Shown here: positions 3,439 through 52,397 of the stretch, piece after piece
Layout of the letters: each line of letters begins with the position of its first letter
Position numbering within the stretch: the first letter of the stretch is position 1
Source of the DNA: Hansfordia pulvinata
Lineage: Eukaryota > Ascomycota > Sordariomycetes > Xylariales
Direction of reading: 5' to 3'
Assembly (NCBI GenBank): GCA_006538405.1
Contig: BJKQ01000005.1
Span: 1,364,001-1,428,000 of the forward strand
DNA: 64,000 bases
Notes under the pieces: model-generated
The model's database searches: none
What the model was told of the DNA's origin: nothing
The model's input: the letters and a program-made list of their open reading frames with translations, nothing else
Position numbers and translations under genes: made by a program

Positions 3439-4031
3439 ATGATTCAGCCCCAGAACCTTCTCTTAGCTGCCCTTTCCCTGGCCCCGCTGGCTTTGGCTGG
3501 GATCAACTGTGAGTACCGAGGCTGGGTGCCTTTTCTTCCTCAATGAAAGTCAGAACTCGAAAGCTGACTCCATTGGGTTACTAGGCAAGGGCAACTCGAA
3601 CTGCGCCGGCACGATTGGCGATCACATTCTGCAGGACTTGATCGATAACGTGAACAAGATCCCGGATAACACAACATTCTCCGAAGGCGACCACATCACA
3701 TGCCACCAGAACCCCGCTGTCGATAGCGGCATCTGCTTATTTGCAAGCCACCCCCCCCCCCCCCCTCTCTTTCCTTTGCTTTCTACCGTTGACTACCCAT
3801 GCATAAGGCGTCACTTGCCAACTAACATTGTATGAAACAATCCAGATGCAACACATTGACGCGGCCGCCATCATGGGCGACCCAGCCGCCACCTCCGTCG
3901 ACATTCAGCACATCAGGCCAGTTGCTCAGGAGCTGCTCGACCACTCTTGCGGCAAGTGTGGAAGCAATGACATGGTCCCAGGGACCACCGATAAGGGCAT
4001 CCTGACATCCAACTGGGTGAGCAAGGTGTAA
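3439..4031 (+). CDS. KP4 killer-toxin-like small secreted protein (copy B)
   Basis: Exons 3439..3508, 3585..3742 and 3846..4031 predict 137 residues. The start gives a signal peptide (MIQPQNLLLAALSLAPLALA). Six cysteines follow in the mature part, with CGKCGS near the C-terminus and a final LTSNWVSK, matching copy A throughout. Intron 1 has a gtgagt donor and ctag acceptor. Intron 2 seems to begin with GC (gcaagc at 3743) and ends tccag at 3845; it contains a run of 15 C. The exon junctions are supported because both introns fall at exactly the positions used in copy A. Expected to be secreted and to act outside the cell on competitors or a host; this is family knowledge, not shown here. Confidence 0.85.
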
Positions 4032-5440: not shown

Positions 5441-6383
5441 ATGACCCCCAAGGTGCCCCCGAGCGGCGTCTGGGCGCCGGCCGTCACCGCGTTCGACCCG
5501 GCGACCGACTCGCTCGCGCCCGACGCGCAGGCCAAGTACTTTGCCTACCTGGCGGGGACGGGCCTGGCCGGGCTCGTCGTCCTCGGCACCAACGCCGAGA
5601 CCTTCCTGCTGACCCGCGAGGAGCGCAAGCAGCTCGTCGCCGTCGCCCGCGCCGCCTGCCCGCCGGGCACCCCGCTCATGGTCGGCGTCGGCGGGCACTC
5701 GACCCGCCAGGTGCTCGAGCACATCGCCGACGCCGCCGATGCCGGGGGCGACTACGCTCTGGTGCTTCCCCGGGTTACTTTGGCAAGGCGACGACGCCGG
5801 CCGTCGTCGACGCCTTCTTCTCCGAGGTCGCGGGCCGCAGCCGGTTGCCCCTCGTCCTCTACAACTTCCCCGCCGTCTGCAACGGCGTGGACCTCGACTC
5901 GGCGACCATCGCGTCGCTGGCGCGCCGCCACGAGGGCGCCATCGTGGGCGTCAAGCTGACCTGCGGCTCCGTCGCCAAGATCACCCGGCTGGCGGCCGAG
6001 CTGCCCGCCGACCGCTTCGCCGTGTTCGGGGGCCAGTCGGACTTCCTGATCGGCGGGCTGGCCAGCGGGTCGGCGGGGTGCATCGCGGCCTTCGCCAACG
6101 TGGCGCCCCGGGCCGTCGTGCGCGTGTACGACCTGTGGCGCGAGGGGCGGCACGCCGAGGCGCTGGCGCTGCACCAGAAGGCCGCGCTCGCCGAGCAGGA
6201 GTGCAAGTCGGGCATCGCGGCCGTCAAGCGCGCCGCCGCCCTCAACTCGGCCGCGCGCGCCGGCGTCGAGGACCCCGAGCGCCTCTTCCGCCCCGCCACC
6301 CGTACCCGGCCCTGCCCGAGGCCGCGGTCGATAAGATGAAGGCCAACCTGGAGGAGATCCTGGCTATCGAGAACGGGCTGTGA
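5441..6383 (+). CDS. DapA/HOGA-family aldolase, likely 4-hydroxy-2-oxoglutarate aldolase (two frameshifts)
   Basis: Class I (Schiff-base) aldolase of the dihydrodipicolinate synthase/N-acetylneuraminate lyase family, about 314 residues when read through two one-base frameshifts, the normal family length. Visible family elements in order: GTNAE near residue 49, the active-site Tyr in LVLYNFP near 141, the Schiff-base Lys in IVGVKL near 172, and FLIGGLASGSAGCIAAFANV, which resembles the matching segment of human HOGA1. The frame breaks at C runs 5768-5771 and 6291-6294; in both, one extra C would restore the expected family sequence. Beside an aminotransferase and a proline/hydroxyproline dehydrogenase, the likely reaction is 4-hydroxy-2-oxoglutarate to pyruvate plus glyoxylate. 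The alternative is the fungal L-threo-3-deoxy-hexulosonate aldolase of galacturonate breakdown, a member of the same family. No targeting peptide is evident. Confidence 0.78.
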
Positions 6384-6876
6384 TGGGAGGATGTCTGCGG
6401 GGTCGCAGGGTAGATGGTTCCCGTCTTTGCGGGTTATGTAGAAATGGGAAGCTTTATCAATTAAAAACGCGACGATGCCTGGTGTGCATTTTTGAGGCTC
6501 TCTTAGACGCGAGCGGCAGATTACAATAGACTTGACAACAGTAATAAGCCTTGTCACCTTGCCAATTGTGACTCTACGGACTCTTGCGTTTCAGCAGACG
6601 GGTCAGGCTCTCTAGTATTGGGGTACCTACGGTTTATCTTTACATGTCTTGTACTCATCATGTTGGTCACGACTATCATCGATCACGTTGCCGAGAGAGG
6701 CGAAGAGTCACAAAGGCTACAGATTACACTTGCACACTCTCGCTCATGTGGGCAGTGAAATGTGTAAACATAAAACTATATGAGCGACCATTTGATACAC
6801 CACGCCGACCCCAAACTTTGCTCAGTACCTCGAACGACACGCCTTAAGCCATGCGCCTCACAGACATGTCGCCCCA
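6384..6876. other. Convergent 3' region
   Basis: Lies between the aldolase stop and the stop of the convergent aminotransferase gene. Lower GC than the flanking genes; no open frame of interest. Confidence 0.6.
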
Positions 6877-8564
6877 TCAAAGATCCTGCCGAATCACCTC
6901 ATCCAGAGCCGCCACCACACGGTCCAGGTTGGAGTCGTTCAGCCCCGACACGTTGATCCGCCCGTTGTTCGGCAGGTAGATGTGGTACCGGCTGCGCATC
7001 TTGGCGCACTGCGCCGGCGTCAATGGGAGGCAGCTTTCCACCGCGATCATGTCCGTGTCAGCCCGTCGCCGCGCCTCGGGGTGGTGACAGTAGTGGAGCG
7101 GGTCAACTTACCAGAACAGGCCCGTGGTCGACAGGATCGAGGTCCAGTTTCCGGGGGTCTGAAAGAGAAGTCACGTCAGCTCCAAACGGCACGCGGCAGC
7201 GTCAGGGAGCCTGGCTCCGGTTTTCTTTCTTACCTTGCGCCCCTCGACGACGCCCTTGTGCAGCTTCTCGCGGTTGCTCACCAGCCGCGCCCGGAGGGAG
7301 GCCAGCTCCTCGTGCCTTCGACGCCAAAAACGTCAGCAGGGAAACGGCCAGAGAAGAGGACGGACAGTCCAGTAAGTACACTCACCACCCGGCAGCCAGC
7401 CCCGCGTCTTCCATCACAATGTCGGCCAGCCTCGACCCGTACGCGGGCGACGACGAGAACTCCCAGCGGATCAGGCACCGCAGCTGCTCGCGCGCCTCGC
7501 CCGCGCGCGCGGCGTCGGCGGCCACCACGTGCAGCGCCCCGCACCGCTCGCCGTAGATGCCCAGGTTCTTCGAGAAGCTCTGGCACGCCACCATCTCCGG
7601 CACGCCGGCGCCGGCAAAGTACCGCAGCCCGTACGCGTCGTCGTCCCCCGTCCCCAGCCCCTGGTACGCGACGTCGAAGAAGGGGAAGATCCCCCCCTCG
7701 CGCACGAGCTCCGCCAGCTCGCGCCACTGCGAGGGGGAGAAGTCGGCGCCCGTCGGGTTGTGGCAGCACCCCTGCAGCACGAAGACGCTACCGCGCGGCG
7801 CCCCGCGCAGCGCCGCCGTCACCGAGGCGAAGTCCACGCTCCCCGCGCCCGGCGCGTAGTGCGCGTACGTGGACACCTCGAAGCCCGCGTGGGCGAGCAG
7901 CGGCTCGTAGTTGCCCCAGGCCGGGGTGCCCAGGTAGACGCGGGGCAGCGGGGAGGAGGGGGAGGCGGAGGAGGAGCACCGGCCGAGGAGGAGCGCGGCG
8001 AGGTGGCACGCCCCCGTGCCCGAGATGGTTTGCACCGATGCGAGCTGTGTTGCGTGGGCGGTGTTAGGTTTGGTTTGTGGTCTTTGTGTGTTTGAGACGC
8101 GAGGGGTGCAGACAGAGAGAGAGAGAGAGAGGGATGGGGGGGACTCACGCGGTTCGACTTGATGGCCGGCGAGTCGGCGCCGAAGAGCAGCTTGGCGGCG
8201 TTCTTGACGAAGCCGGCCGCCCCCGTGGTCGCCTCGTACTGTGTTTTTTCCGCCCGTGTAAGCTGGGGGGTAGCGTGTGCGGGAGTGATCTGGGCCTTAC
8301 ATCGTGGTTCGGGGGCTTCGCGGCGAGGATCTTCTTGGCCTGGCAGAGGAAGGAAGGAGTCAGCATCGGGCGTGCAGTCAGTCAGGAGAGGTCGACTCTG
8401 CTGGCACCAACCTCGTGCAGGGCTTTCATCTCATGATAGTCCCCTTGCTCGTTCCGGTAGATGCCAACGCCCAGGTCGACCTTGTCGGGGGACGTGTCCG
8501 TGTCGGCCTCGCGCTTGAGGTCGAACATGGGGTCGGCAGGGCTCGGGGGCACGTGTTCGAACAT
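6877..8564 (-). CDS. Aspartate-aminotransferase-type class I aminotransferase
   Basis: PLP-dependent transaminase, predicted 408 residues from seven exons (8564..8412, 8339..8301, 8238..8149, 8044..7386, 7315..7234, 7158..7112, 7033..6877), close to the usual AspAT length and without an added mitochondrial presequence. Motifs: VDLGVGIYRNEQG near residue 30, CCHNPTG with Asn190, FFDVAYQG with Asp218 and Tyr221, the PLP lysine in SFSKNLGIYGER (Lys253), and the substrate-carboxylate Arg in NNGRINVSG. The last intron junction is uncertain: the only in-frame acceptor gives FCCLPLTPAQ where relatives usually have a Trp. Standard reaction: aspartate plus 2-oxoglutarate. AspATs also transaminate 4-hydroxyglutamate, which would place it just before the neighbouring aldolase in hydroxyproline breakdown. 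It is convergent with the aldolase and divergent from the dehydrogenase. Confidence 0.88.
8114..8131. repeat. (AG)9 microsatellite in an aminotransferase intron
   Basis: Pure dinucleotide run within the third intron of the aminotransferase gene. Confidence 0.9.
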
Positions 8565-10966
8565 TGTGGCGGGCTCTGGCTCAGTCACTCTGAAAGACTC
8601 TGGGTGAGTGTGGTGATAGTTGCGACTGCGAGTAAACAGTCTGTGCGCTTGTGCAGAAGTGGACTATAGCAGCAGCGTCAAGCACAAGACGGGATAGCGA
8701 CTATCAACAACATATTGCATTCAACCCCACGGGCCCAATTCAACCAGACCGACTCCGCGAAATCAACGCACTGCCTCGCAAGCAGACGACTCACAATAGA
8801 AGCCACGCCGAATCAGCAAGCGGCGCTGCCGACACGCGGGCGCGAGAGGGACCTCCGACCGGGCACAGAGCCGATGCCGCCCAGTAGTGGGCCGCCAAAC
8901 CCTCCCGACGGGACGCAACCCGGCCTCCAGCCAACGCAGACGGGACTGCACGCGGCCAGCCCGCCACGAGCCTCCTTCATCGCCCACCTCGCTGGGAAAC
9001 CCGCGATGGGCGCGGTCGACATTCCAGCGCGCATCGTGACGTCTGGCACAGGCGCCCGCGCACGCCCGGGCGTGTAAATGCGCGCGGCCGTCCCGCCGGC
9101 TTCGAAGTGTCAGCAGACCTACCAGATCCAGCAGAGGCACCAGCACATCTGCCTACGATATCGGCGGCTGTCGGGTTGGATGCCATGCGCCCAGTGCCCT
9201 TCGCGGCGTCGGCAGCGTGACGCCCGGTTTCGGGGTCCCAAGGTTCGAAGAGATCCATGGCTGTGTAGGCGGGGGGGGATCTGCCGCGTAGAGCCTGCAT
9301 ATCTCTGCCGGCGGATTTGCTCGTCGTTCTCCATCACCACTTCTATGCAGTATGGGATGTCTAGAGGGTGTCCCTGATCCGTGCAATATGATCATTCGAG
9401 GTTGAACCCATGGTCGTGGCCATCGTTTGCTCAGTGTCGGCTGTGGCACCGTTTCATACGGTATTTCTGGCTCCGCCACTGTTTCCATTGACTTGTCACA
9501 TTCAGAAGCCAACAATGAAAGGCGTAATGATGACTTGTGTACTTCGGGTGCTCCATCGGAGATGAGTCGAAGACACTTCGCCGCACCAGTGGTACCCGAA
9601 AACACTTGGGACCTGGCATCTCTCGAGTGGTATCACGGTGTCTGCCGAGAATCCTCTTTGCACATGAAGTAAACAGATAGGATATGATACGGGGCAATGG
9701 ACAAGCGAAGAAATGGCGGGAACCAAGATACAAAGCCGTTCACCGTATCATGAGGGACAGCACCGTCACCAGGATCGAACTCAATAGCTCGCCCCAGACG
9801 GCCTATGGGCACTCCCCATCTCGCTCACCACGCCGTCACGCGTCATTGCGGTCTGTGGACTCCCACGCTGATGACCCCGCAGCCCTGCCCAAAGTCCGGC
9901 CGTCATGGAGCAGCATCCATCGACGAGCCATAAGTAAGAAGAACGCTCATCCTGCCCACCTTTCACGGGACGCAGACCGATGCCAGCAGGGCGCTCTCCA
10001 ACGCAAGGCCGCCGACGGGCCCCATGACCCCCCCCCCCCGTTACACGGCTCTTCGAAGCTTGAGTAGCGTGCTCGACGGGGTCCTGGCTATCGGCGGCGG
10101 CAGTGGCGGGAGTAGACAGCCATGAAGGCAGAAGTCGTAGACGGTCGTCCAGACCGCAGACGCACCCCGCGCAGTTCGCAAGGGTCTGCAAGCCGACGAA
10201 TCTGCATCGAGCGATACGACGCGACAGGGCGCTGCCGCTCGCTGGCCCATTCTCAGGGAAAGCATCTCCGTCCAACCAAGTGGCAGGACACTCCAAAACT
10301 TCCAGGTGGCAGAGCCGAGCTCAGTGCCCCAGGGACCTGGACCCATATCTGGGAAGAGGGCAGAAGCAGCAAAGTAGAAGAGAGAGAGGGGCAGACAAAA
10401 AGGGATGGGCCAGTCTATCAGCAGATCCCTGACGCAGGGAGTCGGCCTATCGGATGGCCTCTCGACCGCCGTGGTCCCTGATAGTCCCAAGACCGGAGGC
10501 TAGATACGGGCGACCTGTGTTTTGATCTGGGTGGGTAAGCAGAGCAGAGCAGTGGCAGCCGAGCACGGGTTGTCCGTCCTTCCCCAGACGGCGCGTTGCC
10601 CCCTCTTCCAAGCCGCCTCGAACCCCGCATTGCAGACGGGGAGACGGTAGAGCCGCTCCTACGAGTACAGCTGCCCTGCTGGGCGAGTGGCCGTAGATGC
10701 GCGCCGGCACGTTTCCCGGTCACTAGTCGAACAGTCGACTGCGAGGACGGGCTCGGAGGGCAAGCCACAGATATAACTCGAGACGACGGCCTGGACGAGC
10801 AGACAAGTCGAGATCTCGAACTGGCCAATCTTCATCTGGTCTACGCATTTGCTCCTTTCCTTCGAAGCTCTCCGCGCCCTTCTACACCTTACGTTGGATA
10901 CCTTAGATACCTTCTCCATATCAATCACATACCGCGTTGCGCAAATACCACACACCCCAGCCTACG
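8565..10966. other. Divergent intergenic region, no gene recognised
   Basis: A 2.4-kb gap between the divergent start codons of the aminotransferase and the proline-dehydrogenase homologue, so both promoters must lie here. Several open frames of 100-170 codons occur on both strands, but they overlap one another and carry no family motif. I looked specifically for aldehyde-dehydrogenase (P5C dehydrogenase) remnants and saw none. A run of 12 C sits at 10028-10039. Confidence 0.5.
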
Positions 10967-12631
10967 ATGCACCTCTTCGCCAAGCGCGTAAAGCCCCCAG
11001 CCAGCAAGGCGGTGACGGCAGCGGCGGCGACCTCCCCTTTTCCCAGCCCCCTGTACATCATCGCCTCCCGCGCGGCGTCCTCCAGCTCCACCACCACCTC
11101 CCCTTCCTCCTGCCCCAAATCGCCCTACGTCAGGAAATCATCCACAATCGCCGCCCAGCAGCAGCAGCAACAACACGGGCAGCGGCAGCACCAGCAGCAG
11201 CCCGTGGTCCCCGGCAAGGAGAGCCTGTACCCCCTCTCAGCCCTGCCGACGGGCAACCTGCTGCGCTCCCTGCTGATCTCGGGCGTCTCCTCGCGCCGCG
11301 CGCTCCTCGTCCCCGCCCTATCCGCGCTCTCCTTCCTGTCCTCCCGCGCCCCCGGCGGCCGCCGGTCCCTCCTCCTCGACGTCGACCGCAACCCGCTCCT
11401 GCGCGGGCTCCTGCGCAAGACCTTCTACGACCAGTTCTGCGCGGGCACCACGCGGGCCGAGGCCCGGTCCTGCGTCAGGGACCTGCGCGCCCTCGGCTTC
11501 GAGGGCGTCATCATCACGTACGCGCGCGAGACCACCTTCGACCACAAGGCGGGGACCAACAGCGGCGGGGTCGACAAAGGGGCGGAGCTGGCGAGCGAGG
11601 AGCAGAAGCGCGCCGCGTCGTTCGACGAGGAGCTCGAGGCGTGGCGCGCCGGGACGCTGGCCACGCTGGACCTGGTGGGCGAGGGGGACATCTTGGCGCT
11701 CAAGTAAGTTCACGTCGCACAGCTCTACGCCCATCTACGAGAGTTCGACGAAAAAAAAAAAAAAGACCCTTCCATGCTAACTGGCGCCTCCAGATTGAGC
11801 GGCGCAGGGCCCGGCGTCGTGGCCGACCTGTCCGCCGGCCGGGGCCCCTCGAAGCAGTTCGCGGACGCGCTCGAGGAGATCTGCGCCCGCAGCAAGGAGC
11901 GCTCGGTCCAGGTCATCGTGGACGCCGAGTCGCAGGAGATCCAGGGGGGCATCGGCCGTCTGACGCTGGACCTGATGCGGCGGTTCAACAACAACACCCG
12001 CGGCGGGGGCGGGGGCGGGGGCCCCGCCGTCGTCTACAACACGTACCAGGCGTACCTCAAGGGCACGCCGGCGGTGCTGGCGGAGCACCTGGCGGCGGCG
12101 GAGCGGGAGGGGTTCACGCTGGGGCTCAAGCTGGTGCGCGGGGCGTACATGCTGACGGACGACCGGGCGCTGATCCACGACACCAAGCGGGAGACGGACG
12201 CGGCGTACGACAGCATCGCGCAGGGGGCGCTGCAGCAGCGGCTGGGGGCGTTTGGCGGCGGCGGCCAAGATGAGAAGCGGTTCCCGTCGGTCAACCTGCT
12301 GCTGGCGAGCCACAACCGCGACAGCGTGCTCGCGGCCAACCGGATGCACCAGGAGCGGACGGCGGCGGGGCTTCCGACGGTGCCCGTGTCGTTCGCGCAG
12401 CTGCACGGCATGTCGGACGCGGTCAGCTTCAAGCTGCTGCAGGACCGGGACGCGCGGGGGCGGGCGCCGCGGGTGTACAAGTGCACGACCTGGGGCAGCA
12501 TGAGCGAGTGCATCGCGTACCTGGGGCGGCGGGCCAAGGAGAACCAGGACGCGGTGCTGCGGACCACGGACGAGTACGCGGCGCTCAAGGGCGAGGCGTG
12601 GCGGCGGCTGACCCGGGTGTTTCGGGCGTGA
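10967..12631 (+). CDS. Proline dehydrogenase family, probable hydroxyproline dehydrogenase
   Basis: FAD-dependent mitochondrial dehydrogenase, 524 residues; exons 10967..11703 and 11794..12631, intron gtaagt...cctccag. The N-terminus (MHLFAKRVKPPASKAV) is basic and rich in Ser and Ala, like a mitochondrial presequence, followed by a Gln-rich stretch near residues 66-80. ProDH barrel motifs: TFYDQFCAG, VYNTYQAYLKG, LVRGAYM, FAQLHGMSDAVSF, and LGRRAKEN with the two substrate-binding arginines (Arg491, Arg492). Cys476 lies 15 residues before Arg491, where E. coli PutA has Tyr540, human proline dehydrogenase Tyr548 and human hydroxyproline dehydrogenase Ser485. A small residue there is expected to admit the 4-hydroxyl. 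Together with the linked aldolase and aminotransferase this points to hydroxyproline as substrate. Plain proline oxidation remains the alternative. Confidence 0.9.
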
Positions 12632-14709
12632 AGGCGGCAGAGCAGCCGTTGGTTGATACGGGCGCGAAGGCGAGGGATGGCTTGGCTACATGGGTACGTT
12701 GTCTGGGGAGTCTGGATTAGTTAGTAAAGGGGCCAGCCGAGACGAGAGGGTGGACTTGACGATGGCGATTTGCGGAGTGGGTAGATTGGCGTTGGCGTGG
12801 ATGTTGGCGTGGATGTTGCACGCCCGGCGATGTGGGAAGGAATCCGGGGTAGCCAGGCCGCGAGTAGCCGCGAACCAACCAGACCACCTGTGTACTTTGA
12901 GGTACATGGGTACAAGATACGACGACATGCGATTCACGAGAACATACCTCAGCTACATCTAGGTACAGAACTTGGCCATTTCAAATTGTAGGTTTCAGTG
13001 TCCTGTCCAATGACCAGGAAGGCGATTGGGATCAATGTCTGCCCGTGAAGATAAATGGTACATGTGTTTGCTATCTTTATGACACGATCATCCATCTCGA
13101 TGCTGGCCCTCCGGCACCAACCACTGAACACAGTCCAATCCAAGCTGCTTCAGGCATGAGCACCCGCACTCCGGTTCCATGCCGTTCTCAAACTTGGAGC
13201 ACCAATCCATTGGACCTCCGCGTCATGCAGATACCCAGTGTCCTATCACCGGAGCCTCGAACGGACGAATCCAATGCAATGCCACTTGCACGGCGCAGAC
13301 TGGCCACCAGGTGGGACGAGGTGTGGTCGGGAAGCCTCCCGACCTCGTTATCATGCCCCACCCGGGACCCCTGCTGGCGCGGTTCGGGGCTGCGCTCCCC
13401 GGAGACGGCAAAGCCGTTGAAGTGGGCTTGGCTATCAGCCGCATCGAATCGCCATGGAAGTTAGTGCCTCGAGCACCACCCCCCCTGCACGGAAGAGTGC
13501 CACCCCACGAAGTGCGAGTCTCGTACACCTGTTCCCTTGGACTGCGCAAGCGCCGACGCGTGCCCGACGCGTGCGTAACTCTTACATAACGCCATCCTGC
13601 CACCGGCTCAAACGGCCCCTCGGGCTCTGCACGTGCCGCCACTCGCTCAGGCGTCATTTCCTCGCCGTACTCATAGAGAGCGTGACAGCGCGGGGTCGAG
13701 GCGGGGTGCGGGACGGATTCGGGGGTTGGGGTTGGCATTGGAGTCCGGGGTAGCAGATCGTGCCCGTGATTGGTGTTCAACTTGCCGTGCGTGCTTGGCC
13801 TGGGCAGTAATTGATTGTTCGGCTGGTGCGCAGGGTCCGCGATGTATCCGGTTCTCTTCAATTCCAGCAGGTCTGTAAATGGAGGGGTTTGATCTACGCA
13901 CGCACGCCGATTCTTTACGCAGGCCAAACTACAAGTTTCTTATCAGTGGGCGTTCTTATCTACGTTATCACCACCGCGGCGCTTCTACGGGCGGGCCCGG
14001 GGAAACAATGTCGTTATCATCACTACCCAACGGTGCAGAGTAGATGTAGGTACCTTATCGAGTCAGCTTCAACCTATGTCGCCAGATCAAGATGTGCCTC
14101 GGGCAGGGGATGCCGGCGTTGCAACGTCAGATAATCCGTTTCTTCGTGGGCACTGCTGGCCAGAGGCCGATAACGGGTAGGCCAGCGTTAGCGCGGTGGG
14201 CTTAGGCGTGGGCCACATCTTGGCAGGGTGGGAGCCTGGGGCCATCATCGAGGGCTCGCCCCGCGCATCAGCCGAAGACTCGAGGCACTGGAGGGGCCGC
14301 TGTAGTGAGCGCCGTCGAGGCCCTCGCAAGCGCTAACCCGCACCACTCTCTCATCCAAACCAGGCAACCGGGCATCCCAGCACCGCCCACCCCAAAACCG
14401 CCCTCTGCCCAGCTCGAATCCAGTCCGCGATACCCCAAGCGAACCGCTAACAACGACTCGCTCCAGTACTCCCGCCTGCGTTTGCGGCACATGTCCTCCA
14501 TGGATCCACGCGCCGCCCCGCACCTGCGCCGGGTTAGCGGTGGTCCAGGTCAGACGCCAGCGCGGCCGGGCGGCTCCTGGCCAGGAACCCAGAGCCAGGC
14601 CGGCCACAAGAAACAACCACCAAGCCTGGTTTCGCCTCCTTGACGTCCTGTCTACAACGACAATCCGACTCCCCTCGTGCCCGTCATACCCTCCCAGTCC
14701 CGGCCCAGT
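12632..14709. other. Intergenic, no gene recognised
   Basis: Two kilobases between the dehydrogenase and the regulator. The longest candidate, a 234-codon minus-strand frame at 13223-13927, has a plausible short segment (YGEEMTPERVAARAEPEG) but no recognisable domain. The 3' half before the regulator should contain its promoter. Confidence 0.45.
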
Positions 14710-17294
14710 ATGTCCGAGAAGAGAGTCACCAAGAGAACCCCCAACGCGTACGTTGTCTCGTCGCCGCCTACCACCCTTGCTGACACCCCCGTCCACAGTT
14801 GTACTCGCTGCCGCAAACAGAAGATCAAGTGCTCCGGCACCCAGCCATGCGCTACCTGCAGCAAGCGGAGGCGCCCCTGCATCTTTGACGAGCGCGACAC
14901 CAAGATCCTCGTCACTCAGGGGTACGTCGTATTTGGCTCGCTTCAGGAAGCCGCGCTGACCGTCGCCGCAGATACATATCGGATCTGCAGAGCAAGATTG
15001 CCAGTCTGGAGAATGTCCAGACCGGCATCCGCAGCCCCCCCGAGCTGTCGGACGCCGGGCGAGACGACGACCCCGCGCCCAGCGGCGACGGCGCTTCTGT
15101 CGACGCCGCGAGACAGGACGGGTCGGATCGCAAAAGGTCGACGGATGCCCAGGTGGCAGACAGGAAGAACGAACCCTCACTGGCCGCCGCCTTCTCAGAT
15201 ACCCAGTCCGTCGAAGATGGCGACGACGACTTGGTGAACCCCCTGGTAGGATCGCCGTCCACTTACATGTCGTCATTGAACGGCAGAACGTGTAAGTTAG
15301 TCGTGACTCCGATCCGAGAGCAGGTTGCTGACAGTGACCAGTCTATCTTGGAACGTCTTCAAATTGGTCATTCTCCGGACGAGCTCTGGGGATGATACAT
15401 GAACATCTCTACCAGCGCCCGCTTCCATCTTCACAACTTCTTTTTGATGGTACGGCATACGACATTGGCTGGGATGGCTTCAGGCGTCCTAGCGCTACCC
15501 CTGTAGCACCCCCCGTGATACCCAGCTTCGACCACGCCTCTTATCTGATCAACGCCGTCAAATTTCGCTGCGGCCAGGTGTTCCATCTGTTTGACGACGA
15601 GGACTTCATGCGGAGAATGCAGCGCTTTTATTCCAACGGGCCCGACGCCCAGTGCGCGCACCCGCAGGACAATTTATGGTCGATTCACTTTCATCTACTC
15701 CTTGCATTTGGCCAGGCCATGGTGCTCTCGAGATCCACCGGAAAAATGCCTGCGGGTGCCGAGTTCTTTGAGTACGCCATGCAGCAGCTCCCAGATGCGA
15801 TGGCCTTGGGCAAGGAGCCGCTGATGGCGGGCGAGATTCTATGCTGCATCGCATTGTATCTGCAGTCGATCGACCACCGGAATGATGCCCACGTATATGT
15901 AAGTCTGGGCCCTCAGATCGCCGACATCGCCAGCACGCTAACACCACAGCAGATTGGACAAGCCGTGCGGGGCGCTCTGGTGTACGGCATGCACACCGAC
16001 ATGCCCATACACGAGCTCGGGGAGGGTCACGTCGAACGGTGCCGCAAGATCTGGTGGACGACGTACGTGCTCGACCGCCAGATGACGTCACTGATGGGCC
16101 TGCCGCAGTCCGTCAGAGACGAGGACATTGAGACCAAGGTGCCGACATACCAGGGCATCACGCAGAAGGCCACCGCGCTGGAGATGCAGGTCACTCTGTC
16201 GCGGATCATTGCCGAGATCAACACGTGTAAGTACCTACCGGCGAGAAACTTGACGACTCGAACTAACCCCGCCAGCTATATACGGAGCAAACCGACGTCT
16301 GAAGACCAAGTTCCTCTCCAGTACGAAAGTGGCCCTGGAGAGGATAGCGGGGGTCGCTGACGACCTGAGAGCCACACTGCCCTTGAGGTTAGACGAGCCT
16401 GGGCGAGGCGTATGTCGGGTATCTGCATACATCCATTTGCTGTACTACCAGGTGAGTGGGACCTATTAAGCGTGGAATGGGCAGCCTCACTAACAACCTA
16501 GTGCATCGTGTTGGCAACGCGGCCTTTGATGTTTTGCTGCCTCAAGACGACCCTGGAGAAGTCGGACAAGACGTCGCTGCCGCAGTCGTCGCACAAGATC
16601 TGCAACCTGCTGCAGCTGGGCATCGAGTCGTGCAACCAGATCATCCGGATACTCGAAGGGCTGCAGGCGCAGGGGCTTCTAGGTCAGTACCCTTTCAAGT
16701 AATGAGCGAGGCAGAAGAAAGAGGGTCCTAACACCGCCTCGCAGAAACGTTCCTCCCCTTCGACCTGGACTCGCTCTACATCTCGACCGTGGTCCTGTCC
16801 ATCAGCCGCGTGCTCGACCTGGGCCCGGTGTACGACTGGTCGTCGACGATCCGGCGCTCGACGAACCTGCTGGACGAGATGACGGTGCGCGGCAACCAGA
16901 TCGCGGGCTTCCGCAAGTCCGAGGTGCACGCGTTCGAGGAGCTGCTGGCGACCTGGCACGCGCTGTCGATAGGGCAGGCTCCGGAGGCGGGGCGGCGCCC
17001 GGCGGCGCTGTGGACTTTGGCGGCATGGACCGCCAGGACCCCTCTCTGCTGTCGCCGGCGGGACTTCCGCTGACCGCCCACCCCGCCGCGCCGCCGGGGC
17101 ACACGCCGCCGCCGCCGCCGCCGCCGCCCCCGATGGGGGGCGACGCGCTGTCGGTGCTGCCGTTCGACGACCCCAGCGGCGGCATGTTCTCGGACCTGTT
17201 CACGGCGGAGCAGCTGATGGCCGTGGCGGACTCGATCCAGTCGGAGGACTGCGAGTGGATGGCCGACACGGTGCTGCAGAACGACATCTGGTGA
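14710..17294 (+). CDS. Zn2Cys6 transcription factor of the catabolic cluster (one frameshift)
   Basis: Nuclear regulator, about 739 residues from eight exons (14710..14747, 14799..14921, 14972..15291, 15342..15898, 15953..16226, 16276..16451, 16502..16682, 16745..17294). The zinc cluster CX2CX6CX5CX2CX6C uses Cys14, 17, 24, 30, 33 and 40. A short coiled-coil-like linker follows (YISDLQSKIASLEN), then the fungal-specific middle domain with RKIWWTTYVLDRQMTSLMG. The C-terminus has a Pro run and an acidic hydrophobic end (SIQSEDCEWMADTVLQND) typical of an activation domain. The frame is lost at the G run 16989-16992; one extra G joins the two halves. Its place between proline-metabolism genes suggests a pathway-specific activator analogous in role to Put3/PrnA. 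That is context, not demonstrated orthology. Confidence 0.85.
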
Positions 17295-17616
17295 GGTGGT
17301 GGCGGCGGCGGCGGGGCTGGCGTGTATGTATCATGATTGATGTTTACGAGTCTAATGTCAAGGCGTGGCCTTTTTTCAACCTCCCGTGCCACACATAGGT
17401 ACTGTGATATGCTTCTGGCGTTGCTGGTGTTTCCATCCAGGATGTTGTTATAATTGAAATGCATCTATCGCAAAGCGCCCTCAGAAAAGGATTATCAAGC
17501 CTTACTGGTGGCACTGGAACGTCGTGATGGATCAGTCGGGACAATTCGTCTTTGCAATTCCGGGCACAGTATATCCCAAACCTCAAACCCGACCTATCAC
17601 CCCCGACTGACGCAGC
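17295..17616. other. Convergent 3' region
   Basis: Between the regulator stop and the stop of the P5C-reductase-like gene; no coding signal seen. Confidence 0.6.
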
Positions 17617-18794
17617 CTAATGCCGCGTATCATTCACGTGCCCGTCCCCGGTCCCCATCCTCCGCGCGACGGTGACCGCCTCCCGCAGCCCCCGCCCCAG
17701 CGTGCCCCTGAACCCGCCCTCCTCGAGCACCATCAGGCCCGCTATGGTGCACCCCTCGGAGCTGGTCCCCTGGTCCTTGAGCAGGGCGGGGTGTTGCGTG
17801 CCACCGCCACTGCCACTGCCGCCGCCGCCCTGCTGCAGCAGCGCGGCCGTGCCGGCCATGGACTGGACGACGGCCTCGAGGGCCTGGGCGCGGGGCAGGC
17901 CGACGGCGACGGCGGCGTCGGCCAGCGCCTCGACGGCGACCGCGAAGAAGGCCGGCGTCGAGCCCCCGACCGCCGTGAAGGCGTCCATGTGCCGCGCCTG
18001 CACGAGGACGTGCGCCCCACCTCCGCGAAGAGGGATTGCGTCAGGGCCAGAGCCGCGGCGGCGTGCTCCTCCGTCGTCGAGGAGGCCGTGGGAGGGGGCG
18101 ACGGCGGCTGCTCGATGGCCGTCATGGACTGGGACGCCTGCGCCGCGATGTTGGGCAGGGTGCGCAGGACGATCGTCCTCTTCCCTGGTGCTCCTCCGGC
18201 TGCTGCGTGGTCGGTGGTGCCGTCCTCGTCATCAGGCTGCCCCAACGCGCCGCGGATCTGCGCCGCCGTCCACCCCGCCGCGACGCTGATGAGCGTCTTG
18301 CCCTCGAGCGCGGCGCGCAGGTCGGGCGCCGCGAGGAGCGCGCCCACGTCCGCCGGGTCGACGGCCAGGATCGCCGCGTCCGCGGCCCGGGCCGCCTGGG
18401 CCAGGGCCTCGGGGCCGGCGGCGACGATCGAGACTTCGACTTTCTCTGGACTGGGCTGCTGTAGGGCGGCTTTGAGGCGGTCCGCGGAGGCCGGGGTGCG
18501 CACGCAGGCCGTGATGCGGCGGAAGGGGAGCTTGGGGCGGCCGGGGCCGGGGCCGGGGCCGGGGCCGGCGGCGTCGCGGGCGTAGGAGCGGATCACGCTC
18601 TGCAGGATGGGCGTGCCGAGGTTGCCTGCGCGAAGGGTATTGTTAGGGGTTGGGGTGTCAAGTGCAATTATTGTGGGAATAGGGGCAGTAGGGTTGGGAG
18701 ACGCGGGTGTACGTCGGGGCGGATAGGGGGGTTAATTAGGGTGCCCCTTACCGCACCCGAGGAAGACGAGGCTCTCGTAGGTGGAGGAGGACAT
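17617..18794 (-). CDS. Pyrroline-5-carboxylate reductase-like protein (one frameshift)
   Basis: NAD(P)H-dependent reductase family, about 350 residues from exons 18794..18752 and 18625..17617 once one missing base is allowed at the C run 18015-18018. The N-terminal Rossmann motif is LVFLGCGNLGTP (GxGxxG). The C-terminal helical dimer domain shows TAVGGSTPAFFAVAVEALAD and GCTIAGLMVLEEGGFRGTL, both characteristic of P5C reductases. It is longer than the usual 270-320 residues because of a Gly-Pro repeat near residue 32, a linker rich in Pro and Ser, and a Gly/Ser/Gln insert. The usual SPGGTT catalytic-site signature reads SSEGCT, so activity on ordinary P5C is uncertain. In this cluster it could reduce 3-hydroxy-pyrroline-5-carboxylate or a related imine; that is inference. 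Confidence 0.8.
18541..18569. repeat. GGGGCC hexanucleotide repeat in coding sequence
   Basis: About four and a half GGGGCC units, encoding alternating Pro and Gly on the minus strand in the P5C-reductase-like protein. A similar tract occurs at about 42838-42858 in non-coding DNA. Confidence 0.85.
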
Positions 18795-19468
18795 TGTGTA
18801 ATCTTTGGGCGTGTGAATTATCTGTCCTGGGGGCAATGGCAAAACTGAGCGATTCTGAATAGGATGTGCTGAGAGTACCGTACCTTTATCGGCCCAAGAT
18901 CAAGGTCGCACGCCCTTTAACCTACGCGCGATAGCACTCTTCGCCGCGGGCAGCCGAAAGCTCGTCCGCGCCCGCAACCGGGACCACAACGCTCGCGCAG
19001 CCAGCCGCGATGGAGCTGCTTCCCCACCCCGATCGCGAGGGCTACGGGTGGCCTCCCGACTGCGGGCGAGCCGTTGCGCCATCCTTCCCCGCATCCCGTC
19101 TGACGAATGTATGTACTCTCAGGGGTCGTATGGGGGGTCAATGAGCACCGTATCGTCGCGGGGCTTGTCTCGGTTTTTTCCGTCTGGTAATGCCCGCGCG
19201 TCATGATTGCAGATATTCCGTAGATGCGATGGTGGTGTTATATTGCAGAGTTGTGGAGGGGCGATACCGGTGGCTATGGCTTAGAATCACTGGCCCACTT
19301 ACATTTCCACGGCCGACCTTGTGAATAAGAACTCCCGATTACAAACATTTGATGCTGTACTCGCATATCATCCAATTCAATTCACACAACGTATGTACCT
19401 AAGTAGTGACGCATAAATTCAGCAGCTATTGAAACAAAACACGAAGAACCCCGCCTCCACGTGCAGCA
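18795..19468. other. Intergenic, promoter side of the P5C-reductase-like gene
   Basis: Separates two minus-strand genes: 5' flank of the P5C-reductase-like gene and 3' flank of the FAD oxidase. No supported gene. Confidence 0.55.
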
Positions 19469-20982
19469 TCACAGCTTGGCCTTGGGCGCCGGCCGGACCG
19501 TGTCAAACTCGACCGTGTTGCCCAGCCGCCAGCTGACCGAGTCGCCCCAGTCCTTGCCGCCGCCGCCGCCCTCCCGCGACGACGGCGGGGGAGGCTCGCG
19601 CCAGCGCCACCGCTCGACGGGCTGCCTGCCGTCGGGCGCCGCGAGCAGGGCCTCGACCCAGCGGCCGACGATGGGGAACATCTTAAAGCCGTGGCCCGAG
19701 TCGCCGGAAAGCAGGACGACGGACGAGCGCGAGCCGGGGACGTAGTCGACGACAAAGTCCGAATCGCTCGTGTCGGCGAACCAGCACAGCGTCTGGTTGA
19801 TCAGGGGCCGGCCGGCGAGGTGCGGCAGCGCGTGCTGCAGCAGCTTGCGGCACCGCGTCTGGTCCTCCTCGGGCATGAAGCGGCTCTCGGCCGCCGTCGC
19901 GGGCGGGTGCGACTCGCCCGTGGCCGGGTCCGTGTTGACGTAGCCGCCGCCCATGGGGCAGATCTTGAGCAGGTTGGTCCCCGGCTCCGGCTCGAACAGG
20001 AACCCGAACTCGCGCGCGTACGTGACGGGGATGCCCCGCAGCGCCGCCGCCTCGTCGTCCGTCAGCCGCACGTGCGCCACCGACCACGACTTGGCCACCA
20101 GCGTCCGGCCGGCCTGGGGCACGAGGCGCGCCGACGCCGCCCCCGCCGCCACGACGACCAGGTCCGCGGCCACGAACCCTTTCGCCGTCGTCTTCTTCTG
20201 CTGCTGCTGCTCACCGCCGCCGCCTCCTCCGCCTCCACCGATGCTGCTGCTGGTCCTGACCCCCGTCGCCGCGCCGCCCGGGCCGCCGTACACAATCTCC
20301 TCGGCGGCGCCCGCGGCGCCCAGCACGAAGCGCACGCCCAGGCCCGCGGCGGCGCGGAACGCCGCCCGCAGCGCGTTGGTCGAGTGCGCGTACCCGTCGT
20401 ACCGGTTGAGGTAGCCCCTCCAGCCCGGCAGGGGGCTGTCGCGGTACTGCCAGGCGGCGTGGTCGGCGATGTCGCGGGCGCCGCGCTCGATGGGGACGAC
20501 GTGGCGGCGCAGCTCCGGGTCGCGCTCGGCGGCGGCCCGGAAGCGCTCCAGCGTGTCCACGGCGCGCTGCGGCGCCTCGACCGACACGCAGTGCAGGAAG
20601 CCCGTGCGGCGGAAGTGCGGGGCGAAGAGGGGGGACTTCCAGGCGTCGAAGGCTTCCTGTTGTTTTTTGTTAAACTGATGATAGGGGGCGTGGGGAAGTA
20701 GTGCGGTCTATAAAGGGAGAGGGAGGGGAGGGGGGGGCAAGATGGCGAAGAATGGGGAAAAACAAGGTCGTGAGGCTTTACCTTGGTCAACTGCGTGTAA
20801 AAGTCGTCCTCATACTCGGCCCTCAGGATCTTGTTGACGTCGTTGGCGGCCGAGAACTCGCTCGGCACCTCCGAGCTCTTATCCAGAACGGTGATGTTGG
20901 TGTAGCCGGCTTGGGCCAGGCGGAGGGCGGTCGAAAGGCCAAAGGCGCCGGCGCCGACGATAACGATGGCCTTGGATTCCAT
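19469..20982 (-). CDS. Peroxisomal FAD-dependent amine oxidase (sarcosine/fructosyl-amino-acid oxidase family)
   Basis: Flavoenzyme of 462 residues; exons 20982..20782 and 20656..19469. It begins with the dinucleotide-binding motif IVIVGAGAFGLSTALRLAQAGY. TLCWFADTSDSDFVVD carries Cys358, at the position of the cysteine that binds FAD covalently in monomeric sarcosine oxidase and amadoriases. LSGDSGHGFKMFPIVGRWV is the conserved C-terminal FAD segment. The protein ends in AKL, a PTS1 peroxisomal signal also seen in fungal amadoriases, so hydrogen peroxide would be made in peroxisomes. Substrates in this family are secondary amines (sarcosine, pipecolate, fructosyl amino acids, saccharopine), and the exact one cannot be read from sequence. 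Next to proline genes, a cyclic imino acid is attractive. The frame is clean throughout. Confidence 0.9.
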
Positions 20983-22611
20983 TGTGAGCGTGAGCGGGCA
21001 GGGCTCTGGGCCACGAAACAGGGGGGTGAAAGCGAGTAGAGGGGCTCCAGCACCGGCTTCGCCGTTCACTCGAGGAGACTCGTTCGTCCTCCCCTGGGCT
21101 CGGTTGGTCCGGCGGTCGGGTATATAAAACCCGTGAGGACATAGAGGGCCGCGAGTCTCCTGGCCTGCGAGTGCCTCCCCCCGTTCTGCGCGAACCCCGG
21201 CCGCTGATACTCTTGCGTAAACCGTTACCCCGTCAAGCCGGATCGTCGTCTGCATCCAGCGCCCGCACGCGCGACTCCGGCCGGTACGCGACCCGTCGTC
21301 CGTTACCGGTTTTCCACGGGATAGGTTCGTCGGCCCCTGTGGCGTGGTCGCATGCCATCTAGAAGGGCCCACTCGACTCGAGGTCGGGATCGCACCCGTC
21401 CCTGCACATGCACTCCAGTCAGCCCCAGCGCCGCCGGCCCATTTCCCTATCGTCTGGTCCGTCGCGTCGGCCGACTCGTGCTGGTCTATCTCTTCTCACA
21501 TGTCTGCCCCATCTTGTGCTGTTTGTGGGTCGAGACTGCGTGATAATGCGGGGAGCTCGGCCACGCCCTCCACCCTCCCCTCCATCCCCCCCTGCGCAGC
21601 GTTTCCGTGGCACTACGCTTGGGCGTCTTTTGGTGGTTCGCTGGGTCGGAAATAGGGCGGATGGACTTGGGCAGCCTATGGTCCACGCAAGCCGGTCATC
21701 GAGCCGGTGTAGAAGCGGCCGCCCCCGCGTTAACTTGGGCCAGGGCTGGATGGTGAACACTCTCCAAGGTCCATTTGCCGTCCGCGGAGCCCTTCTCAAC
21801 ACTGTCCATCCCATGAGGTCATCTTTGATACTGCGACCAGCAATTGGTTATCTCACTCGCTCATTCGAGGGCCCCGGCCGCCCGCGCATGATGCGGTCCT
21901 CCGTGAAGCTGTTGGGCGCCTCAATGGCTCGACCGAGCAAACGTCTGCAAGCCTTGGAAAGACATGCCACAAGGCTTGCTAAGGAACAAGGTCGCTCGGG
22001 TCACATTACACAAGCACAGGACCGCGGATGCAAAGAGTGTGAGGTGAGATTGACAGTGACGAAAGCCAACGCCAAAGCCATCTAGATTCTATCTGGCCAT
22101 TGCTGAAGCAATCAGAGCCCACCGCTGCTCGGTCGTGGAACAATGTCGCGCCTGATTGGCGATGAAGTATATAGCCTCGAGGAATGTAATTAAGCAGATG
22201 CGAAGACTCTTTTTACAGATAGTCACGTAACACACATAAGCAGATAAACGGTGACCAGACCAGACGGCTCATCGGCTGCAAGCGATAAGAGTTCAATGGC
22301 ATCTCGAATGCCTTCACCCGGACATTGGCTGTCTTCTATAAAAGCAATCTTGCAACGTACTAAGATACAAGTGGCATCGACGAGCCCCTTATAGTGCACT
22401 GAGTGATACATAAATAGTGTCACGGACGACGATCAGGCAACTGAGAGTAGTGTGAAAACGATTGATAAAACTGATGATGCTGTCCTAGATCCGTGCCCCT
22501 GATATATACTGTAAAGCGCCTAGAGATAACAAAGGAGAGTTGTGTACAAGTTGCCGACTCAAGCAACCAAGAGACTCAGCACATCCGAGCCCGTCGCGAT
22601 CGTGCGATGGC
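20983..22611. other. Intergenic, no gene recognised
   Basis: 5' flank of the FAD oxidase and 3' flank of the repeat protein. A 225-codon plus-strand frame at 21408-22085 has no motif and random-looking composition. Confidence 0.5.
21121..21129 (-). promoter_or_regulatory. Possible TATA element of the FAD oxidase
   Basis: TATATAAAA on the plus strand, read as TTTTATATA on the gene strand, about 140 bases upstream of the ATG at 20982. Match by sequence and distance only. Confidence 0.25.
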
Positions 22612-24317
22612 TTAGTTGCGGTCACCGCCCTCGTGACGCTCACCACCCTCGCGGCGGCCGCCGCCCTCGCGGTGCTCGTCGCCGCCCTCGCGGTGGCCGC
22701 CCTCGTGTCCCTGGCGGTCACCGCCCTGAGGGTGGCCCTCGTCACCACCGCGGTTGCCATCGCGGTGTCCCTCGCGGTCACCACCGTGGTTGTTGCGCTT
22801 GTGGTGCTCACCACCACCCTGACGGTGCTCACCGCCGCCCTGGCGGTGCTCGCCGCCCTCGTGGTGCTCGTCGCCGCCCTCGTGTCCCTGGTGGTCACCA
22901 CCCCGGGGGCGCCCCTCGTCACCGCCGCGGTTACCGTCGCGGTGTCCCTCGCGGTCACCGCCGTGGTTGTTGCGCTTGTGGTGCTCACCACCGCTCTGGC
23001 GGTGCTCGCCGCCCTCGCGGTGGCCATCCTCGTGTCCCTGGCGGTCGCCACGGGGGCGCCCCTCGTCACCGCCGCGGTTGCCGTCGCGGTGTCCGTCGCG
23101 GTCACCACCGCCGCCGCGGTTGTCGCGCTTGTGGTGCTCATCGCCGCCGCCCTCGTGGTGGTGAGGCCCGCCGTTGCCGTGCTGCTGCTGCTGCTGACGG
23201 TGGCCGCCGCCGCGGGGGCTGCTGTCGTGGGGACCGGGCTGGCGCTCGCCGTCCCGGCCGCCCTGCCGGCGGTCGTCGGCGGCGCGCTTGGAGTGGCGGC
23301 CGCCGTCGCCGCGGTGCTCGTCCCCGCCGCCCTCGCGGTCGTTGTTGTGGCCCTCGCGGTCACCGCCCTTCTGGGGAGGCGGGGGAGGGCGGCGGTCGTC
23401 GCCGCCTCTGCGGCCGCCGTCTTCGTGGCCGCGGTCGCCGCCGCGGTCGCCGCCCTCGTGGTCGTTGCCGCGCTTTGAGTGGCGGCCGCCGTCACGGTGG
23501 TCGTCACCGCCCTCCCGGTCGTTGTGGTCGTTGTGGCCCTGGCGGTCGCCGCCCTTTTGAGGAGGAGGGGGAGGGCGGCGGTCATCACCGCCAGCCCGGC
23601 CGCCGTCACGGTCGCCGCCCTCGTGGTTGTTTCCGCGCTTCGAGTGGCGCCCACCCTCGCGGTCATTGTGGTCGTCGTGGCCGTTGCGGTCACCGCCCTT
23701 CTGGGGAGGAGGGGGAGGGCGGCGGTCATCACCACCATCACCCCGGCCACCGTCACGGTCGCCGCCGTGGCTCATGTCGCCGCCGTGCCGGTCGCCGCCC
23801 TCGTGGTCGTTGCCGCGCTTCGAGTGGTGCCCGCCGTCGCGGTGGTCGTCACCGCCCTCCTGGTGGTCGCCGCCCTTGCCGTGGGGGGAGGGGGAGGGCG
23901 GCGGTCATCACCACCGCCCCGGCCACCGTCACGGTCGCCGCCGCGGTTCATGTCGCCGCCGTGACGGTCGCCGCCCTCGCGGTCGTTGTCGCGCTTAGAC
24001 CGGCGGCCGCCATCGCGGTGCTCGTCGCCGCCGTCGCGGTGGTCGTCGTCGCCGCCCTTGCCGTGGGGAGGAGGGGGCCGGCGGTCGTCGTTGTCGTCGC
24101 CGCCACGGTTGCCGACGCGGCCCATGTCGCCCCCGCCGCGGTGGTCACCTCCCCGGTTGCTGTTGTTGTTGTTGTTGTCGCGGGGGTCGAGGCCGAGGTA
24201 GAGGGCGTCGCGCTGGGTCAGGGGCTGCAGGCTCTCGGCGCGGTTGAGGACCGGGGCCGCCAGGGCCGAGGGGCCGAGGAGGACGACGGCGGCGATGAAG
24301 GACTTGGAGAAGTACAT
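22612..24317 (-). CDS. Secreted repeat-rich protein with multiple Lys-Arg sites (Kex2-processed repeat protein candidate)
   Basis: About 568 residues if one frameshift at the G run 23883-23888 is corrected. Starts with a clear signal peptide (MYFSKSFIAAVVLLGPSALA). The rest is extremely hydrophilic, dominated by Gly, Asp, Arg, His, Pro and Asn, and is presumably disordered. Two repeat types are visible. The N-terminal half has about five copies of GGDDRRPPPPP-KGGD; the C-terminal half has about three to four copies of KRNNHGGDREGHRDGNRGGD. About eight Lys-Arg pairs (SKR five times, HHKR three times) sit at regular module borders, the cleavage site of the Golgi protease Kex2. That organisation fits a Kex2-processed repeat protein or peptide precursor, though the candidate cores lack the aromatic residues of ustiloxin-type peptides. 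A His-rich metal-binding or wall-associated protein is an alternative. Confidence 0.75.
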
Positions 24318-25615
24318 GATGGAAATTGAAGAGAGTTGGAAAGAGGTATAGATGCTGATGCTGATGATGGAAAAGTGGAAAGAGACCGCTGTATGAGAGA
24401 TACAAGGGAAAGATGGGGGTATATGATGCTGGAGAAGGATGATTGTTGTAAGGAAAGATGCTTTGTGATGGTTGTTGTTTGATGCTGCTGATGAGAGTAA
24501 GATTCGTCCTATCCAGCGAGATGAGCCCGTTTAAGTATTACATTTCGGCTCACTGTGAACACTGTATGAATACTCATTGGAAGCATCATGTTGGGCGACT
24601 TGGCGGACCGCTCTGGTGAGGTTTTGCCACAATAGCCTTGGTGTTGCGTGGCCCTGTATGGAAATAGACTGATTTGGACTTTGATGGGCTTCGAGTGGCC
24701 AAATCCCGTTCGCCTCTCCCGAGCCGCGGAGAGGGATCGTGAAGGTTCCGGTGCGCCGCCTGTCAGAGAATAGAACAAGCAGAGAACAACCCAATCGAAG
24801 CACCGCCGCACACCAGTAGCAAGGCAGGCAGACAGAGAGATACTGGCACACATCGGGCATGGCGGACCCCAGCGGCAGCCCACGGGCTCTGGAAGCTCTC
24901 GCCCCACGATCAGCCCTTCTAGAACGGGTGTCAAGGCATGGCAGGATCTCGAACGCGCAACGCTTGTTGCCACTGTGCGCGTCCGGCCGCCTCGGACCAG
25001 GATCGCCTCCGGTGTCCGGGGTAGCTCGGCCTGGCATGTGGGCGAGCGCCGAGCAGGCTCTCTCACAAAGACATTGGAAAGAGTTGTGCTCTGGTTCTTG
25101 GAGAGTCAAGACTCAAGAGTCAATAAGGTAGTTAGTTGCGCAGTTATTACATCAGTCGAGAAAAAGTCTATCAAGGGTTCCGTTGAGGCACTTTCGTGAG
25201 ACAGTGTTCCCTCTTGATTCAGCCCCCAAGCTGTCACCTGTGTCTGCCACGCGCTCGGCCGATTTCCCAGTCCACGGATAGACTCTAACTTAGGGACGTG
25301 AGCCAAAGTCAGCTCAATCGGGCAGACGAGTTGAGAGCAATAGACGCGTAAGCGCTCGGGAAATCCCCACCGGCCCCACGATGAGATGAGCCCCGAGTGG
25401 CCCCCTCCGTCCGTGGGCCGTACTCGTAGCTTCGGCATGTGGGAGAGAGACAAACCCCCGGACTAAACAGGAACAGCGCGCCAGGGGTCCGCGTGGAATC
25501 CCGCCACCACAGCCCTCCGACGACGGCAGGTTGGTTGGTTGCTCCCACGGCCTCTCTCTCCCTCCAGCGGGATCGTGAGCGAGCGAGCGAGCACTCTCAT
25601 CACCACTGCCTTCCT

Positions 25616-52307: not shown

Positions 52308-52397
52308 TCTTCTGCTCGTGCCCGCGATGGTGATATGGAAAAGGGCGGCCAATGGTGAAGGGTTACGGAAGCAGAGTTCTGAGCGTGGAGAGTTGCT

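Follow-up and report, generated by a model that had tools for sequence, protein, structure and literature searches.

Gene content of the locus

The window analyzed here is a stretch of 64,000 nucleotides from the ascomycete Hansfordia pulvinata (contig BJKQ01000005.1, here C5, positions 1,364,001 to 1,428,000), in which six genes lie side by side between positions 5441 and 20982 (Table 1). They encode a class I aldolase of the family that comprises DapA and 4-hydroxy-2-oxoglutarate aldolase (HOGA), a transaminase of the aspartate aminotransferase (AspAT) type, a proline dehydrogenase (PRODH) homologue, a Zn2Cys6 regulator, a protein resembling Δ1-pyrroline-5-carboxylate (P5C) reductase (P5CR), and a flavin adenine dinucleotide (FAD) amine oxidase. 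A mammalian-type cluster for the catabolism of trans-4-hydroxyproline is probably the best explanation of this set. The gene models were spliced by eye from the window DNA, with no RNA evidence behind them, and their domains were called via Pfam; they bear out the arrangement of six neighboring families that an earlier note had read from the sequence. That note had further proposed a hydroxyproline gene set with its own regulator, and of this proposal the PRODH, AspAT, DapA-family aldolase and regulator stand, while its views of the aldehyde-dehydrogenase step and of an extension to other imino acids do not.

The aldehyde-dehydrogenase step had been expected to be supplied from elsewhere; instead, an ALDH4-type P5C dehydrogenase (P5CDH) gene lies about 8 kb upstream of the cluster, just beyond the window. 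A search of the genome with a eukaryotic P5CDH model returned two genes above 500 bits, one on contig C27 and one on C5, the latter lying 2.6–4.5 kb before the window begins, at a distance of 8.1 kb from the aldolase. The spliced C5 protein matches solved yeast and mammalian P5CDH chains, with 557 bits for 4oe4 and about 480 bits for 3v9g and others, and a 491-residue piece of the C27 protein also matches these chains (599 and 484 bits). Once the C5 gene is included, all four families of enzymes that degrade hydroxyproline in mammals are represented within 17.2 kb. Besides these two P5CDH genes, the whole genome of 46.8 Mb yields two PRODH and three P5CR matches; since one member of each of the three families falls inside 23.3 kb, the proximity of the genes exceeds chance.

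Table 1. Predicted genes and other features of the cluster and its surroundings (window positions unless a contig or locus is named).
Feature	Position	Strand	Evidence and remarks
DapA/HOGA-family class I aldolase (predicted 4-hydroxy-2-oxoglutarate aldolase)	5441-6383	+	PF00701, 7.5e-34 (dihydrodipicolinate synthase (DHDPS) family); single exon, two frame breaks
AspAT-type transaminase	8564-6877	-	PF00155, 5.7e-60; 7 exons by eye, no frame break
PRODH homologue, Cys at the PutA Tyr540 position (predicted hydroxyproline dehydrogenase)	10967-12631	+	PF01619, 1.8e-49; 2 exons, no frame break
Zn2Cys6 regulator	14710-17294	+	PF00172 and PF04082; one frame break near the 3' end
P5C-reductase-like protein	18794-17617	-	PF14748, 1.2e-30 (106 bits); motifs GGSTPAF and TSSEGCT; one frame break
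FAD amine oxidase, fructosyl-amino-acid-oxidase/sarcosine-oxidase group	20982-19469	-	PF01266; C-terminal AKL; no frame break
ALDH4-type P5CDH	C5:1359459-1361384	-	Same contig as the window; reads through unbroken
Second PRODH gene, Tyr at the PutA Tyr540 position	50634-52802	-	Only other PRODH match in the genome
DUF5910 frame between P5CDH and the cluster	L037:9502-9939	-	Pfam
Promoter regions with CGG sites (examples)	8860-10720; 21282-21706; L037 7727-7858		
Open frame with Kp4 domain	3467-3835	+	Killer-toxin-like family; Pfam E 9e-11
Secreted-looking repeat protein	22485-24530	-	
642-residue open frame	33030-34958	-	

A cysteine at the specificity position of the proline dehydrogenase

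In Escherichia coli PutA, Tyr540 is reported to impose a preference for proline over hydroxyproline (Ostrander et al., as cited in PMC3718742), and PDB entry 3e2q is the PutA Y540S mutant with trans-4-hydroxy-L-proline. Both PRODH matches of the H. pulvinata genome lie inside the window, 38 kb apart, and the cluster copy carries a cysteine at the equivalent position. The homologues mostly share this replacement: among the best 120 of 717 PRODH homologues, 118 have Cys (117 counted by pattern, plus P0027 by eye) and 2 have Ser. A phylogenetic tree built from 50 of these 120 homologues plus the two window copies recovers a Camillea sequence as the sister of the cluster PRODH (support 100/100) and puts the Tyr-type copy, at most 47% identical to the Cys-type rows of the tree, on a very long branch.

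To test the equivalence of the two positions, an AlphaFold2 model of the Camillea orthologue was generated from a 35-sequence alignment (mean pLDDT 87.1) and aligned structurally to PutA. The nine rows numbered as in E. coli PutA finish at an offset of 145 in seven cases and of 143 and 144 in the other two; an offset of 145 would make Cys395 of the model correspond to PutA 540, provided that no gap intervenes. The 15-residue spacing from the Cys to the following Arg pair favors an ungapped match. A single-sequence phmmer search for PutA gave no match; a profile search did find PutA.

Aldolase and transaminase

The closest solved relative of the cluster aldolase is 3qfe (401 bits over the full length), from Coccidioides immitis and labelled only as a putative member of the dihydrodipicolinate synthase family; we know of no activity for it. 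The two belong to one clade of 36 sequences (97 in the Shimodaira–Hasegawa-like approximate likelihood ratio test, SH-aLRT) to the exclusion of six further DapA-family genes of H. pulvinata; the tree is a quick one in which the six paralogues, partly incomplete, are all on long branches, and a seventh weak match on C18 was excluded. The Schiff-base Lys, the Tyr and the HOGA-type Asn78 are kept, as matched via the GxxGE and GxK motifs rather than by direct alignment to HOGA1. By pattern counts in the best 120 homologues listed, GTNAE occurs in 109 and GVKLTC in 115, with GVKFTC in one more. These residues fit a 4-hydroxy-2-oxo-acid aldolase, a prediction from sequence that does not by itself prove 4-hydroxy-2-oxoglutarate as the substrate. 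To our knowledge, no aldolase is used in proline breakdown.

The closest homologues of the transaminase in our list are named aspartate aminotransferase. The annotation of a Fusarium oxysporum homologue (P0315) combines it in a single protein with an unrelated domain of the HpcH/HpaI family, a family that includes aldolases of the same reaction type. This joined protein hints at cleavage of the AspAT product by an aldolase, the HpcH/HpaI type being perhaps an alternative partner.

Linkage in other fungi

Linkage was assessed from matching contig sizes and locus tags, read by hand in the best 120 rows each of PRODH, aldolase and AspAT homologues; a row can represent more than one member, in which case the contig given may be that of a different one. 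A single contig carries all three genes in Camillea tinctor (contig of 1002820 bases) and in Byssothecium circinans (383196 bases). PRODH and AspAT lie five locus tags apart in Kalmusia sp. (N0V90_001809 and N0V90_001804) and four apart in Paraphaeosphaeria minitans (PMIN06_002791 and PMIN06_002787), and aldolase and AspAT share a 5.1-Mb contig in Aaosphaeria arxii, which is weak evidence alone. Two or three of the genes are thus found together in 5 of 17 comparable species; Diaporthe amygdali, Penicillium roqueforti and Paecilomyces variotii were excluded, as the rows of each appear to stem from more than one assembly or strain. The co-location in relatives for which the earlier note had called is therefore present in some of them, namely one member of the Xylariales (Camillea) and four of the Pleosporales (Byssothecium, Aaosphaeria, Paraphaeosphaeria and Kalmusia), and because it recurs in both orders the arrangement is either old or has moved. 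Within the 20 best AspAT rows, a contig is shared in five of the six species that also occur in another list, with Aspergillus heterothallicus as the exception and P. variotii not comparable; this proportion fits the view that the true orthologues are clustered and the weaker matches are paralogues.

P5C-reductase-like protein, regulator and oxidase

Among the 120 PRODH homologues listed, 9 are annotated as a single protein together with a P5C reductase, and these 9 fall at several separate places in the tree; whether true fusions or merged gene models, they show that the two genes are adjacent. The window protein is 33–54% identical to the reductase parts of these joined proteins and 26% identical to its recovered own paralogue L012 (a further paralogue, L011 on C2, is absent from the identity and motif comparison). 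The standard signatures of P5C reductase are SGSGPAY and SPGGTT. The window protein departs from them with GGSTPAF and TSSEGCT, and 8 of the 9 joined relatives have GGSTPAF and TSPEGCT, whereas L012 has GSGPAY and TSPKGTT. In bacteria, ProC has been found beside the hydroxyproline dehydratase HypD, and E. coli ProC oxidizes both 4-hydroxyproline isomers, if poorly (PMC12899673).

The best PDB chain for the DNA-binding domain of the regulator is PUT3 (27.6 bits, against 24.1 for GAL4), a weak lead. Put3- and PrnA-type sites were not enriched in the cluster promoters. In about 9 kb of intergenic DNA, CGG-N8-CCG occurs 14 times against about 5 in shuffled sequences and CGG-N5-CCG 12 times against about 5; with 21 spacings tried and 60 shuffles each, these two raised counts are leads only. 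Farther along the window, the 642-residue open frame resembles, by eye, another fungal transcription factor of the Zn2Cys6 type.

By sequence, the oxidase belongs to the fructosyl-amino-acid-oxidase (amadoriase) family, with 196 bits for 3djd versus about 40 bits for sarcosine oxidases. Its terminal AKL is a putative type 1 peroxisomal targeting signal. The secreted-looking protein encoded beyond the oxidase gene has many repeats rich in Gly, Asp, His, Arg and Pro, a low-complexity expansion.

Evaluation of alternative interpretations

Several observations weigh against a hydroxyproline cluster. A sequence-profile alignment puts a two-residue gap in the PutA strand exactly at the Cys of the PRODH, and the same Cys might also occur in the proven proline oxidases PrnD or Put1. 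After 3qfe, the aldolase scores 98 bits with YagE, 96 with a DHDPS chain and 88 with human HOGA1; by motif matching, Thr replaces Ser77 and Ser198 of HOGA1 and Ala replaces Gly79 of GxxGE. Among human HOGA variants, S77T lost kcat and activity, and S198T kept its kcat with a 7-fold higher KM (PMC3188589). The Camillea cluster aldolase scores under the curated cut-off of all seven NCBIfam models that it matches, DapA included, and the Camillea transaminase scores above that of a subfamily named aromatic amino acid transaminase. Two Pfam-recognized frames (DUF5910 and Kp4) and one long matchless frame lie between P5CDH and the aldolase, and none of the 26 amino-acid permease (PF00324) matches found is on C5 (20 of 42 candidates were scored, so 26 is a lower bound). 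Finally, the homologues lie on different contigs in 12 of the 17 comparable species within the best 120 rows per list: Xylariales sp. PMI_506, Pestalotiopsis sp. 9143b, Stachybotrys elegans, Aspergillus steynii, A. heterothallicus, Colletotrichum truncatum, Thelonectria olida, Mariannaea sp., Thozetella sp., Hypoxylon sp. CI-4A, Neonectria ditissima and Scytalidium lignicola.

These points were weighed against four other explanations. The locus could be an enlarged proline-utilization cluster like prn, in which PRODH, P5CDH and the Zn2Cys6 protein would degrade proline, the P5CR would recycle P5C, and the aldolase and AspAT would be passengers. The prn cluster of A. nidulans does bring together, within about 13 kb, genes for a Zn2Cys6 activator, a PRODH and a P5CDH (PMC5983819), and the PUT3 match of the regulator points the same way. 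The reductase part of the joined protein P0061 just passes the NCBIfam proC cut-off (198.2 against 196.75; the window protein was scored with Pfam alone), so that plain P5C is still a possible substrate. PrnD may itself belong to the Cys clade; if it had the same Cys, the specificity argument would be weaker and the aldolase argument unaffected. In A. fumigatus, the proline oxidase Afu3g02300 is named as increased in a discussion of infection data (PMC2526178); as the gene named PrnX in that species is AFUA_6G08780 (PMC5423626), Afu3g02300 is probably outside the prn cluster. Against a proline cluster, two other fungi have the aldolase and AspAT on one contig with this PRODH, H. pulvinata possesses a Tyr-type PRODH as well, and no permease match lies on C5 among the 20 of 42 candidates scored; this explanation is rather unlikely.

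Less probable still is that the cluster acts on another imino acid or amine (pipecolate, for instance, or a proline that is N-methylated or 4-substituted) and that its core pair consists of the FAD oxidase and the P5CR-like protein. The affiliation of the oxidase with the fructosyl-amine/sarcosine-oxidase group would suit such a substrate, as would the ability of E. coli P5C reductase to reduce Δ1-piperideine-6-carboxylate as well (PMC12899673). On the other side, an aldolase of this type suits a 4-hydroxy-2-oxo acid, and the genes seen to be linked in relatives are those for PRODH, AspAT, aldolase and P5C reductase and not that for the FAD oxidase, to which the search in relatives did not extend. 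The earlier suggestion that the reductase and oxidase extend the route to other imino acids finds no support, as the reductase adjoins PRODH in relatives and nothing ties it to other substrates.

It is highly improbable that the genes are neighbors by chance or belong to a decaying cluster. Three of the six genes do contain frame breaks, four in all (near 5.77, 6.29, 16.98 and 18.01 kb, in the aldolase, regulator and P5C-reductase-like genes), and the 12 species with differing contigs would agree with chance. Most of these breaks are in or beside G/C homopolymer runs, and similar breaks at such runs occur in genes for a CCT-family chaperonin (C1:1513794-1515208), an aldo-keto reductase (C6:2230930-2231792) and a proline racemase (C7:2528764-2529782). 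Because these three genes elsewhere in the assembly are affected alike, assembly errors are the likelier cause, and decay was set aside on this comparison of three genes, which is not a genome-wide count. The AspAT, PRODH, FAD oxidase and upstream P5CDH genes all read through unbroken, and the recurrence of the linkage in one Xylariales and four Pleosporales fungi also speaks against chance. Homopolymer errors may be widespread in this assembly.

Least probable is a role of the aldolase in a sugar-acid route such as that of galacturonate, unrelated to its neighbors: the sugar-acid aldolase YagE does rank above HOGA1 among its PDB matches other than 3qfe, but its clade excludes the six own-genome DapA-family genes and it shares a contig with AspAT or PRODH in three other fungi. 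An aldo-keto reductase, sought as a marker of a galacturonate aldolase, was found beside none of the DapA paralogues among 41 PF00248 matches, the nearest being about 13 kb away.

Proposed pathway and comparison with known systems

The sequences show which gene families are present, how they are linked here and, for PRODH, AspAT, aldolase or P5C reductase, also in some relatives, and that the specificity site is changed. From this we infer the following substrates, directions, compartments and regulation for the proposed hydroxyproline cluster. The Cys-type PRODH would oxidize hydroxyproline to 3-hydroxy-P5C in mitochondria, and the P5CDH encoded upstream would convert 3-hydroxy-P5C to 4-hydroxyglutamate. 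The AspAT-type enzyme would then yield 4-hydroxy-2-oxoglutarate, which the DapA-family aldolase would cleave to pyruvate and glyoxylate. The pathway is likely to be activated by the Zn2Cys6 protein, and the P5C-reductase-like protein would most likely convert excess hydroxy-P5C back to hydroxyproline. In the least certain step, the FAD oxidase would most likely feed in modified or stereoisomeric hydroxyprolines in peroxisomes.

A more speculative extension, which we consider possible but doubtful, takes the PRODH–PYCR1 proline cycle as its model (PMC13155685). By this analogy, the Cys-type PRODH would represent a fungal hydroxyproline-dehydrogenase family and form a hydroxyproline cycle with its recurrent partner, a retuned P5C reductase. 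Interconversion of hydroxyproline and hydroxy-P5C would buffer the latter and let the respiratory chain receive reducing power from NAD(P)H, and the excess would be drained to pyruvate and glyoxylate by P5CDH, AspAT and the aldolase.

Hydroxyproline occurs in collagen and in plant cell-wall proteins, where fungi meet it. A. fumigatus grows slowly on hydroxyproline as the sole nitrogen source (PMC2526178). Among open-licence papers, in the top matches of long lists, we recognized no description of a fungal hydroxyproline gene set. If the interpretation is true, it gives testable functions to a protein clade whose members are now mostly named proline dehydrogenase or oxidase, to a subfamily of P5C reductases and to the 3qfe-type aldolases.

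One bacterial route of hydroxyproline catabolism proceeds through an epimerase, a D-hydroxyproline dehydrogenase and a DapA-type deaminase. The H. pulvinata locus resembles bacterial routes in having a DapA-family enzyme, or a P5C reductase beside a hydroxyproline enzyme as in the case of HypD with ProC, but Pfam recognizes no epimerase and no glycyl-radical enzyme among the six cluster genes, and the sole PF05544 gene found in the genome is on another contig. With the A. nidulans prn cluster (prnA, prnX, prnD, prnB and prnC) it shares a PRODH, a P5CDH and a Zn2Cys6 activator in a short region, to which the window cluster adds the aldolase, AspAT, P5CR-like protein and FAD oxidase. No match to PF02423, the family to which PrnX belongs, was found anywhere in the H. 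pulvinata genome.

In mammals, trans-4-hydroxyproline is degraded by HYPDH/PRODH2, P5CDH/ALDH4A1, AspAT/GOT2 and HOGA1 (PMC8779045). The fungal locus encodes the same four enzyme families, its PRODH likewise has the Tyr540 equivalent replaced, and by motif its DapA-type aldolase retains the catalytic Lys and Tyr and the HOGA-type Asn. Human HYPDH carries Ser at the Tyr540-equivalent position, whereas the fungal PRODH has Cys, and the fungal aldolase has Thr in place of Ser77 and Ser198 of HOGA. No presequence is evident by eye on the fungal aldolase and AspAT, and the fungal genes differ further in being clustered with a Zn2Cys6 protein, a P5CR-like protein and an oxidase ending in AKL.

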